38,698 bases of DNA, taken from NCBI GenBank assembly GCA_013204395.1, contig JABMNZ010000022.1, forward strand, positions 1 through 38,698, given 5' to 3'. The position numbers and the translations under genes are program-made. A model generated the notes under the pieces. It worked only from the letters and a program-made list of their open reading frames with translations. It did no database searches and was not told the DNA's origin. Positions 1 to 31,890 of this stretch are shown here, piece by piece. The DNA is from Parcubacteria group bacterium. Its GTDB lineage: Bacteria > Patescibacteriota > Patescibacteriia > UBA9934 > GWF2-40-263. Position 1 is the first letter of the stretch, and each line of letters begins with the position of its first letter.

Positions 1-24
1 CCAAAGCAGGCGGGATTTTTCTTT

Positions 25-13788: not shown

Positions 13789-13834
13789 AATGAACGTAGC
13801 TATCCCACCTGGGATTATTACGTTCATTTTTTTT
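13789..13834 (+). terminator. recR terminator formed by repeat copy 1
   Basis: A long hairpin (10-bp outer stem, 3-nt internal loops, 6-bp inner stem) is followed by eight or more T residues on the plus strand. The hairpin is the left 36-bp palindromic repeat plus an extra AA/TT pair on each side. Confidence 0.85.
13791..13826. repeat. 36-bp palindromic repeat, copy 1
   Basis: Arms TGAACGTA and TACGTTCA, then 3-nt internal segments (GCT, TAT), inner arms ATCCCA and TGGGAT, and a 2-nt centre. The pairing of the arms is perfect. The stop codon of the PaaX/Cas2-like gene is its last three bases (13824-13826, TGA on the minus strand). It shares the exact 17-mer TGGGATTATTACGTTCA with copy 2. Confidence 0.9.
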
Positions 13835-14363
13835 CTACAATAAATACCTTTACCCACTCTTCTATACCAAGCAACTTGACCATGGCTCTCATATCGTTGA
13901 TAACAGTATATTTCGTTGAGTATAAGCTGTCGTGCACTCTGGTAAAATCAAAGATGCGAATAAGTGACCTCCAACGACCTCTGATCTTTGCTCCTTCTGG
14001 AATGTCAAAAGAGATCATGCAAACTTTTCCATCTTCAATTTCTTCCGTGCACTGAATTATCCTCTGTTTTAATGCTGCAACCAAAGCATTGGAAGAGAGG
14101 GAGATGATAACCTTATCTCCTTTTCGACAATCATTAACCCACTTCTTTCGACGAAGATCCCTAAGTGCCCGTCTCTTATCTTTCTCCTGCCCATACAGCT
14201 CCTGCCACAATTCCCACTCAGCTTGAAACTCAACATTCTGTCTGGGACCACAATAGGCTGGCAATCGAAGCAATTCATCCAAGAAGCTTACTTCTTCCAG
14301 CAAATCACACAGCACGTCACCCTGGATCGTTAACCCCTTCTTTCTTCTCTTTGTTCTGGACAT
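13824..14363 (-). CDS. PaaX/Cas2-like protein: winged helix plus Cas2-fold domain
   Basis: The 179-residue protein has a basic N-terminus (SRTKRRKKG), a helical region to about residue 60, a winged-helix-like segment (RRALRDLRRKKWVN, then KVIISLSSNALVAALKQRI, 64-102), and a ferredoxin-like Cas2/PaaX_M domain from 111 to 177. The latter starts KVCMISFDIPEGAKIRGRWR with Asp120 at the end of strand 1, where Cas2 nucleases have their catalytic Asp, and continues with the F-x-R-V-H-D-S-L-Y-S-T segment. Such proteins are common in this group of bacteria without any CRISPR array, and none is present here. The start codon and stop codon both lie inside copies of one palindromic repeat. Possible roles are an autoregulated repressor or the DNA-acting protein of a mobile unit. 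Confidence 0.7.
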   Translation of the reverse strand: MSRTKRRKKGLTIQGDVLCDLLEEVSFLDELLRLPAYCGPRQNVEFQAEWELWQELYGQEKDKRRALRDLRRKKWVNDCRKGDKVIISLSSNALVAALKQRIIQCTEEIEDGKVCMISFDIPEGAKIRGRWRSLIRIFDFTRVHDSLYSTKYTVINDMRAMVKLLGIEEWVKVFIVEKK

Positions 14364-14392
14364 ATAAATACCAGGTGGGATTATTACGTTCA
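14357..14392. repeat. 36-bp palindromic repeat, copy 2
   Basis: Same architecture and spacing (8-3-6-2-6-3-8) as copy 1. The right half is identical to copy 1 over 17 nt, while the left half is decayed: arms TGGACATA and ATACCA. The start codon of the PaaX/Cas2-like gene (14361-14363) lies within the left arm, and a TAATAAT box in the right half may be its -10. Confidence 0.85.
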
Positions 14393-14535: not shown

Positions 14536-14604
14536 AAAGAAGAGCCCCGGGTGAAATCGGAGACTCCACCCTACGATCTGGGTCGTACAAGGGGGCTCTT
14601 CTTT
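14534..14604 (-). terminator. Branched terminator with a 13-bp outer stem
   Basis: The 13-mers at 14536-14548 and 14592-14604 pair perfectly. Inside are two hairpins: GGGTG/CACCC (14549-14553 with 14567-14571) and TACGA/TCGTA (14572-14576 with 14583-14587). The minus strand ends in CTTCTTTTTCC. It is a three-way junction serving as the 3' end of the 14623-15210 gene. Confidence 0.75.
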
Positions 14605-14622
14605 CACGCGGGGCGCGTTGGA

Positions 14623-15210
14623 CTACTGAGTGGTAGCGGCCTGTGCCTCATCGTGCACTTCGAGCACCTCACGCCAGTTGGTGATCTCCGGTTCGGGCAT
14701 GTGTGGCGTCCACACGATGGCGTGGCGGCACCAGAAGTCGACAGATGCAGTACGCTCAGGCGTCCCAGGCAGGGTGTTCCACGGCTCGTTGGGCGTGACG
14801 CAACCAACGTAGGCCGTCTTGAGGTTGTACTCGCCGTCGATGAAGCGTCGGGCCCCCTCGATCCAGTTGAACCGCTGGGCGACCACAATGACGAAGGTTG
14901 AGATCTGCGGCACACGGTCGTGCACCACGATCACTCGGCTGGGACCTCGGCGTCCCGGGCGCTGCACGAACGACCCAATGATCTCGTCGATGGTCACCAG
15001 TGGAGTTGCCAGCAACGTTGCGGAGCCGATGGGACGTCCCATGTCGATCTCGAACGCGTGGTTCTGGGTACCAACGGGAATCACGAGCGTCCCAATGACC
15101 TCTTCCAGCAAGGTCACCAACCTCTCGTCCCTGGCCCAGTACTCATCAGCGTTCTTGTACGAAAAGACGGTCGAACCGTCGGCCATCTGGTAGGTCTTCT
15201 GCAGGGGCAT
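14623..15210 (-). CDS. Unknown protein
   Basis: This 195-residue protein is not recognised. It has no signal peptide or membrane helix; its beta-rich middle part (SRVIVVHDRVPQISTFVIVV) and aromatic-rich C-terminal part suggest a compact globular fold. The ATG at 15208-15210 is preferred over the one at 15225, because GGAGG overlaps the earlier ATG and is correctly spaced for the later one. It is GC-rich at third codon positions and monocistronic. Its -35 box is in the loop of the ABC-transporter terminator, and its own terminator is a three-way junction. Confidence 0.65.
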   Translation of the reverse strand: MPLQKTYQMADGSTVFSYKNADEYWARDERLVTLLEEVIGTLVIPVGTQNHAFEIDMGRPIGSATLLATPLVTIDEIIGSFVQRPGRRGPSRVIVVHDRVPQISTFVIVVAQRFNWIEGARRFIDGEYNLKTAYVGCVTPNEPWNTLPGTPERTASVDFWCRHAIVWTPHMPEPEITNWREVLEVHDEAQAATTQ

Positions 15211-15246
15211 GTTCTCATCCTCCATGCTGCGTTGCGCAGACGAAAT

Positions 15247-15275
15247 AAGATAACAAAAAACAGGCCCTTTGTCAA
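15247..15275 (-). promoter_or_regulatory. Promoter with TTGACA inside a terminator loop
   Basis: TTGACA (15270-15275) and TATCTT (15247-15252) are 17 nt apart on the minus strand. TTGACA lies in the loop, and the spacer covers the 3' arm and T run, of the ABC-transporter terminator. Confidence 0.85.
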
Positions 15276-15290
15276 TGCATTAGGCCTGTT
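15255..15290 (-). terminator. ABC transporter terminator
   Basis: On the minus strand AACAGGCC (15290-15283) pairs with GGCCTGTT (15266-15259), followed by TTTTG. The 16-nt loop holds the next gene's TTGACA. Confidence 0.85.
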
Positions 15291-29507: not shown

Positions 29508-29516
29508 AAAAAATAA

Positions 29517-29543
29517 TTAGCACTCCACATTATAGAGTGCTAA
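29517..29543. promoter_or_regulatory. CIRCE operator, perfect match
   Basis: TTAGCACTC (29517-29525), 9-nt spacer, GAGTGCTAA (29535-29543): the exact consensus inverted repeat. It covers the -10 box and part of the promoter spacer of hrcA. Confidence 0.98.
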
Positions 29544-29556
29544 TTCTTATTGTCAA
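29529..29556 (-). promoter_or_regulatory. hrcA operon promoter
   Basis: TTGACA (29551-29556), 16-nt spacer, TATAAT (29529-29534) on the minus strand: consensus SigA-type boxes. TATAAT is inside the CIRCE spacer. TTGACA is 7 nt past the stop of the PP2C gene with no terminator between, so read-through from that gene is possible. Confidence 0.93.
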
Positions 29557-31404: not shown

Positions 31405-31824
31405 TCAGGCGACCTGCTCGTCTGGCAGGTTCGTTGGGGGTGCGAAAGAAGTTCTGATCGGAGGAAGCCACCACCATGTGGTGAAGAGGTTCAGGTGTAC
31501 TCCATTGGAGTACTGGGAGGCTGGGACAATGCCAAGATCGACGCGGTGGAAACCCACCAGCACGAACCGTTTGACAATGCCGTCTCTGCCTTCAACCACT
31601 CGTTGAACCTTGGACATATACACGCGGTCACCCACTATGTACACGACCTGCACATGTTCCAGGACTGAGGGAACCGATCCCCCTCCTGGCATCTGAACGA
31701 GAAGTCCGGTTTGGTCACCACAGGAATCGAATCCCTGGTGATGCTTGAACCGTTGCAGAACGCGTCTGCAAAACACCTCGCTGTGAAACAGGTTTGTAAC
31801 CTGCGGTGGACGTGGAACACTCAT
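31405..31824 (-). CDS. Unknown small protein
   Basis: The 139-residue protein is not recognised. It has a beta-rich middle part (VQVVYIVGDRVYMSKVQRVVEG, IVKRFVLVGFHRVDLGIV), which could be an SH3- or PilZ-like barrel, and a Trp/Pro-rich C-terminal end. An SD (AAGGAG) precedes the ATG. It is monocistronic, between the Kef-type antiporter and the PP2C gene, and GC-rich like the other orphan genes. Its -35 box sits in the loop of the antiporter terminator. Confidence 0.6.
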   Translation of the reverse strand: MSVPRPPQVTNLFHSEVFCRRVLQRFKHHQGFDSCGDQTGLLVQMPGGGSVPSVLEHVQVVYIVGDRVYMSKVQRVVEGRDGIVKRFVLVGFHRVDLGIVPASQYSNGVHLNLFTTWWWLPPIRTSFAPPTNLPDEQVA

Positions 31825-31853: not shown

Positions 31854-31882
31854 ACGCTAATAAAAACACTGACTCTTGTCAA
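31854..31882 (-). promoter_or_regulatory. Second promoter with TTGACA inside a terminator loop
   Basis: TTGACA (31877-31882) and TAGCGT (31854-31859), 17-nt spacer, minus strand. TTGACA is in the loop of the antiporter terminator, as at 15270-15275. Confidence 0.85.
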
Positions 31883-31890
31883 GCCAGTGT
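31862..31890 (-). terminator. Terminator of the Kef-type antiporter
   Basis: On the minus strand ACACTGGC (31890-31883) pairs with GTCAGTGT (31873-31866, one G-T pair), followed by TTTTATT. Confidence 0.8.

Follow-up and report, generated by a model that had tools for sequence, protein, structure and literature searches.

Predicted terminator hairpins that enclose the -35 box of the next gene's promoter in a Candidatus Uhrbacteria genome

The primary paper on terminator-promoter overlap in Salmonella is said to be that of Brandis et al. 2019. In this bacterium, terminators and promoters overlap between operons, with an effect on fitness (PMC7055797). As far as the accessible text of that source goes, the elements described here resemble the Salmonella overlap in that a terminator and the next promoter share DNA, lie in tandem and persist in evolution. 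Unlike the present case, the Salmonella overlap is described in the same text for core operons with high expression, where experiments showed an effect on expression and fitness (PMC7055797), whereas our elements join mixed genes, carry the -35 hexamer inside the hairpin, and have a 17-nt spacer that consists of the right arm and the U-tract. At E. coli tufB-secE, no promoter passing the motif of this analysis was found within the tufB terminator.

A related phenomenon is the recycling of RNA polymerase after termination. E. coli RNA polymerase in vitro reinitiated in 37% of terminations, and in 55% with added sigma70, according to the available part of the report (PMC6978380). There as here, a terminator beside a promoter gives the released polymerase a nearby start (PMC6978380, PMC6978322, accessible sections), but recycling was demonstrated in vitro on a terminator and a promoter that were separated. 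In Thermotoga maritima, short gaps likewise limit the room for signals, and the accessible text of that account presents them without a -35 hexamer inside a terminator hairpin (PMC3636130). Synthetic terminator-promoter bifunctional elements of yeast unite both roles in one element by design and, unlike those found here, are engineered and eukaryotic, as their description reads in the available part (PMC10298055). Terminator-promoter overlap is known; in the open literature we found neither the nested geometry nor its repeated occurrence nor a spacer that invites it. For Patescibacteria, our search of that literature returned no description of a -35 hexamer within a terminator hairpin, which is a weak negative, since subscription papers lay mostly outside the search.

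We analysed a window of 38,698 nt, which is one contig (JABMNZ010000022.1) of a Candidatus Uhrbacteria genome of 1,104,563 bases in 31 contigs, hereafter the own genome; its gene calls are crude and number 982 in total. The first-pass annotation had reported TTGACA inside the terminator hairpins at 15247-15290 and 31854-31890, and we confirmed this at both sites, with the -10 hexamer at exactly 17 nt (Table 1). It had also proposed that a single element of about 40 bp ends one transcript and starts the next, and our analysis supports a predicted terminator and a predicted next promoter within 44 bp at site 1 and 37 bp at site 2.

Table 1. Features of the two nested terminator-promoter elements and their neighbouring genes (window coordinates)
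Feature	Coordinates	Strand	Remarks
Nested terminator-promoter element, site 1	15247..15290	-	44 bp; also in BH28, bin.153, G025
Predicted terminator hairpin of the ABC transporter gene	15259..15290	-	9 bp stem, 14-nt loop
Site 1 -35 hexamer TTGACA, within the hairpin loop	15270..15275	-	
Site 1 -10 hexamer TATCTT, directly after the U-tract	15247..15252	-	
Site 1 upstream gene: ABC transporter, membrane and ATP-binding domains, 590 aa	15301..17073	-	
Site 1 downstream gene, function unassigned	14623..15210	-	195 aa from the start at 15210
3' terminator of the site 1 downstream gene, with GCGCCCCGCGTG flank	14539..14616	-	common to BH28, G025 and a third locus, C15, behind unrelated ORFs
Nested terminator-promoter element, site 2	31854..31890	-	37 bp
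Predicted terminator hairpin of the antiporter gene	31866..31890	-	10 bp stem, 5-nt loop
Site 2 -35 hexamer TTGACA, tip of the hairpin	31877..31882	-	
Site 2 -10 hexamer TAGCGT	31854..31859	-	
Site 2 upstream gene: Na+/H+ exchanger with TrkA-N domain, 554 aa	31909..33573	-	
Site 2 downstream gene, 139 aa, function unassigned	31405..31824	-	homologs behind the antiporter in BH28, G025, G031

At site 1, the hairpin begins 10 nt past the stop of the ABC transporter gene and has the arms AACAGGCCT (15290-15282) and GGGCCTGTT (15267-15259), followed by TTTTGTTA, with the U-tract at 15258-15251. Its RNA fold of -14.9 kcal/mol was equalled by 2 of 200 shuffles. At site 2, the hairpin (31890-31866) begins 18 nt past the antiporter stop, with arms ACACTGGCTT and GAGTCAGTGT and then TTTTATTA, its U-tract lying at 31865-31858; it folds at -13.3 kcal/mol, which was also equalled by 2 of 200 shuffles, and the first two T of its TTGACA are paired within the stem tip. 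The -35/-10 spacer is 17 nt at site 1 and 17 nt at site 2. Both sites fit a predicted intrinsic terminator (a GC-containing stem-loop shortly past the gene stop, then a U-run), a predicted sigma70/SigA-type promoter (-35 and -10 hexamers separated by 16-18 nt and preceding a gene) and a terminator-promoter overlap, in which the predicted upstream terminator overlaps the predicted downstream promoter. No known RNA family was matched at either site, the lone match in the window being a tRNA elsewhere. The downstream products of site 1 and site 2 had no match in Pfam or NCBIfam. For the site 1 downstream gene, the start at 15210 (195 aa), behind GGAGG, is preferred over that at 15225 (200 aa).

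We consider it quite probable that each site is a dual-use element: the downstream gene's sigma70-type promoter serves as the core around which the upstream gene's intrinsic terminator is built. The loop would contain the -35 hexamer, the 17-nt spacer would be filled by the right arm plus the U-tract, and the -10 hexamer would follow the U-tract. The upstream transcript would fold the hairpin and be released in the U-run beside the -10 of the next promoter, and the downstream gene would be transcribed from TTGACA-17-TANNNT. We infer from these sequence features that the hairpin terminates transcription and that transcription starts at the nested promoter. A GC core at spacer positions 5-7 and a T-run at 10-13 would provide the right half of the terminator, which a left arm upstream of the -35 would complete, and the promoter presumably came first. 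In short same-direction gaps, such an element would form at roughly the rate expected from random packing, and selection on both signals could hold it in place on their shared DNA, so that its conservation would reflect a double constraint.

The ordinary promoters of this lineage have a biased spacer. The spacer of 81 own TTGACA-17-TANNNT promoters that no terminator hairpin spans had 52-59% A at positions 1-3, 62-69% G+C at 5-7 and 41-49% T at 10-13, with G at position 16. A nested element likely arises easily, because these promoters already carry a GC core and a T-run in their spacer. Part of the T-run bias could have been left by decayed nested elements. The T-run form, TTGACA-N8-12-TTTTT-N1-4-TANNNT, occurred in 57 of the 59 genomes of the order, with 771 matches compared to 35 for the pattern read backwards. 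A form with an A-run spacer gave 227 matches against 37 for its reversed pattern in the same 59 genomes, and the T-run form outnumbered it in 55 of them. Spanning hairpins of -9 kcal/mol or better were found at 7 of 28 own T-run promoters (0.64 expected), and spanning hairpins at 4 of 12 T-run promoters of BH28, a sibling genome from the same genus (0.32 expected). The A-run form, often TTGACAAAA...CAAAAAGTGGTAT, is a second promoter form that recurs across the order.

Genome-wide, the own genome contained 711 intergenic hairpins with a U-run, compared to 106-163 in five shuffles, and a strict terminator set of 421, compared to 11-15. TTGACA-15..19-TANNNT occurred 126 times, and the reversed pattern 42 times. 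Nested elements numbered ten in the own genome, every one with a spacer of 17 nt; in 552 kb of BH28 there were ten nested candidates, eight of them with a spacer of 17. Among 521 intergenic terminators after a same-strand gene, 8 contained TTGACA, which ranked first among its 180 permutations (mean 1.54), and in 7 of these 8 a TANNNT followed at exactly 17 nt. All 8 belonged to the 318 terminators with a tandem next gene, compared to 0 of 203 otherwise (P 0.025). With a strict cut-off (183 terminators), TTGACA was found in 3 and had no clear lead among the permutations. When gene ends were ignored, TTGACA inside any hairpin of the own genome ranked 17, 13 and 5 of 180 at three cut-offs; with a -10 required it ranked first, with 9 occurrences compared to 83 for the other 179 permutations combined at the loosest cut-off. 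The site elements are not just a pair of coincidences, since there are ten in the genome and several are conserved.

We also assessed hairpins from the promoter side. Strong hairpins (dG<=-9) spanned the -35 in 8 of 155 promoters, where 60 swaps of upstream halves gave an expectation of 1.2 and a maximum of 4. At dG<=-3 there was no excess in the 155 promoters (19, compared to 20.1 with swapped upstream halves). The idea that the hairpin is a general promoter feature was ruled out by this lack of excess at loose cut-offs, together with the U-runs and close upstream stops of the strong ones.

The placement of the promoter was examined in 49 gaps of <=400 nt that contained both a promoter motif and a strong terminator, with uniform placement as the expectation. 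The -35 lay inside the hairpin in 8 gaps (9.3 expected), which is no enrichment over uniform placement. It abutted the hairpin just past the stem in 15 gaps (7.3 expected), an enrichment, lay further downstream in 21 (13.8 expected), and lay upstream of the terminator in 5 (18.7 expected). TTGACA leads its 180 permutations, but the nested position is no more frequent than uniform placement predicts. These results demonstrated that the nested layout is real and not avoided, and nothing shows that the genome prefers it over random packing. The median gap was 104.5 nt for nested, 107 nt for abutting and 194 nt where the promoter lay further on. The suggested role as a compaction device is weak, nested gaps being no shorter than abutting ones and shorter only than those with a distant promoter, and nesting being no more frequent than random placement gives. 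In an E. coli control of 300 kb in six stretches, 0 nested elements were found among 234 terminator-like and 26 promoter-like matches; this control cannot show avoidance, because its promoter matches are too few.

The site 1 element was found behind the ABC transporter gene in four species, namely the own genome, BH28, bin.153 and G025. The ABC proteins of the last three were 82%, 70% and 73% identical to the own protein, the value for G025 covering only the part compared. The stem and the -35 were unchanged in all three except for the outermost left-arm base in BH28. Four of the eight ABC homologs more than 60% identical (L108, L109, L110 and L111) had a plain terminator instead. The downstream gene was homologous in the own genome, bin.153 and G025 (own-G025 46%, own-bin.153 32%), and in BH28 a 122-aa ORF lay between the conserved element and the homologous 3' terminator region. 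That this ORF is a frame-shifted remnant of the 195-200-aa gene was ruled out, as there was no similarity in six frames. A near-identical 3' terminator (GCGCCCCGYGTG flank and AAGAGCCC...GGGGCTCTT) stood behind unrelated ORFs at 14539-14616 of the window, C15:137-184, BH28 C38:224548-224610 and L073, as if the terminator or the ORF had been exchanged between unlinked places.

At site 2, the antiporter and the downstream gene were adjacent in the own genome, G025 and G031. In BH28 the two were split by a short ORF (C38:208100-208520) that is hydrophobic, has a terminator of its own and is absent from the own genome. As to co-linearity, one downstream gene family followed site 1 in three species and another ORF in BH28; the site 2 pair was kept in G025 and G031 and had the small ORF inserted in BH28. 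TTGACA-17-TAGNNT was present at site 2 in the own genome, BH28, G025 and G031. The hairpin arms were ACACTGGCT in the own genome and AAACCCC in G025; BH28 had a weak hairpin and G031 none, and in G031 the promoter overlapped the antiporter stop. The predicted hairpin was rebuilt in G025 around a fixed promoter core. Among 28 antiporter loci in the right orientation for reading the gap 3' of the gene, a set that does not include G025, the own locus was the only nested one.

Retention in BH28 was checked for 13 own candidates, six of which fell in the compared part of BH28. Four of these six were nested in both genomes and two were not; C8:5410 was abutting rather than nested in BH28. In the four retained elements, 138 of 153 columns were identical between the own genome and BH28; for the 60 nt that follow, the figure was 109 of 248. 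At C9:707-712 (L009) three signals overlapped: the TGA stop of an upstream 91-aa ORF lay inside the TTGACA of the next promoter, and the last codons of this ORF formed the left arm of the terminator (C9:712). This triple overlap was kept in BH28. The same stem carried a compensatory change in BH28, T-to-C in one arm and A-to-G in the other. Identity of >=90% was found in 3 of 5 nested elements compared to 6 of 32 plain terminators (P 0.08), so better conservation of nested elements than of plain terminators is not clear and the difference is suggestive only.

These observations can be read in other ways. Plain coincidence of packing, in which short gaps bring independent signals into overlap without a shared history or added constraint, is possible but on the unlikely side. 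Such a process agrees with the frequency under uniform placement (8 compared to 9.3), with site 2 being split into two elements in BH28 and hairpin-free in G031, and with the abutting layout of C8:5410 in BH28. It is harder to reconcile with the retention of site 1 in four species and of 4 of 6 elements in BH28, the compensatory stem change, and the hairpin rebuilt around the same promoter in G025, although an element that is retained is not necessarily retained because of the overlap. Another explanation is that polymerase ending in the U-tract sits on the next -10 and restarts, so that the output of the second gene is tied to that of the first. The expected release point does fall at the -10 hexamer, and the available part of one report describes E. 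coli RNA polymerase in vitro as mostly staying on the DNA after intrinsic termination and able to reinitiate downstream (PMC6978380). Restart after termination was usually in the reverse direction in another study, in the accessible part of its text (PMC6978322), nested placement is without enrichment, and the gene pairs are functionally mixed; we regard this coupling as unlikely.

The element might also be a docking site, offering an insulated promoter to any ORF that lands behind it, with its cargo being swapped. We judge this distinctly unlikely. The 122-aa ORF of BH28, without similarity to the gene of the three other species, does lie between the conserved element and the homologous 3' terminator, and the same 3' terminator stands behind an unrelated ORF at C15:137-184, but only one of the four species shows a swap, and at a single site. 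FtsH and a glycosyltransferase are among the genes behind other elements, and neither window gene is new, as homologs of each occupy the same position in other genera. The favoured insertion site of the first-pass annotation would have to rest on this other ORF and on the one inserted upstream of the promoter at site 2 of BH28, which is not enough. A hairpin that is a promoter-bound dyad (an operator or extruded cruciform) controlling access to the -35, and no terminator, is highly improbable. Its symmetry is centred near the -35, but the stem sequences vary from site to site, so there is no common operator, and the strong hairpins have T-runs and lie close behind a same-strand stop, with no excess at -3 kcal/mol. 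If each site is instead an upstream terminator built around a downstream promoter, the whole order might be read in the same way: a promoter would be half a terminator that any same-direction pair completes with one left arm, terminators would be repeatedly rebuilt around fixed promoters, and some would be locked as dual-use elements passing polymerase on, with shared 40-bp elements, rather than operons, holding gene order in place. We find this extension doubtful.

If the terminator-around-promoter reading is confirmed, a simple sequence rule would describe how streamlined bacteria use the same DNA to end one gene and start its neighbour, and the promoters and terminators of Patescibacteria would have to be annotated jointly. 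In these genomes, a U-run behind a hairpin may be part of a promoter spacer. The natural minimal terminator-promoter elements, with their matched nested, abutting and separated relatives, make the coupling of neighbouring genes directly testable.

Genes upstream of nested elements include CTP synthase, superoxide dismutase, a penicillin-binding protein, S-adenosylmethionine synthetase and a phosphoglucose isomerase family protein; those downstream include FtsH, a glycosyltransferase and proteins without a family match. No functional pairing of upstream and downstream genes was evident at nested elements. In one relative, a nested element leads to a gene that we take, from its first residues, to be tgt. 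The downstream genes had been described as orphan-class, which fits both window sites and does not hold generally, FtsH and the glycosyltransferase ruling out a single orphan class. High-GC3 genes were frequent behind TTGACA promoters (40 of 71, compared to a background of 127 of 959, P 1e-19), and this bias is not special to nested elements, because it is common to TTGACA promoters generally. The class with GC3 >0.6 comprises 127 of 959 own genes (genome median 0.42), including FtsH and proteins without a family match; the 100 nt upstream of its members contained TTGACA in 28% compared to 4.6%, and GGAGG in 55% compared to 15%.

Several further features of the genome were observed. At 29515-29556 of the window, TTGACA-16-TATAAT with a TTAGCACTC-N9-GAGTGCTAA repeat lies upstream of hrcA-grpE-dnaK (Pfam); we take this repeat to be an ordinary CIRCE operator. 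A 179-aa gene that weakly matches a Cas2-like PaaX domain is bordered by imperfect 36-nt repeats at 13791-13826 and 14357-14392. This gene had no match in the compared part of BH28, so it may be a mobile insertion. On contig C14, two copies of one promoter stretch were found about 2 kb apart (C14:46651 and C14:48609, + strand), and a TTGACA promoter in the opposite direction (C14:46614) lies just upstream of the first copy.
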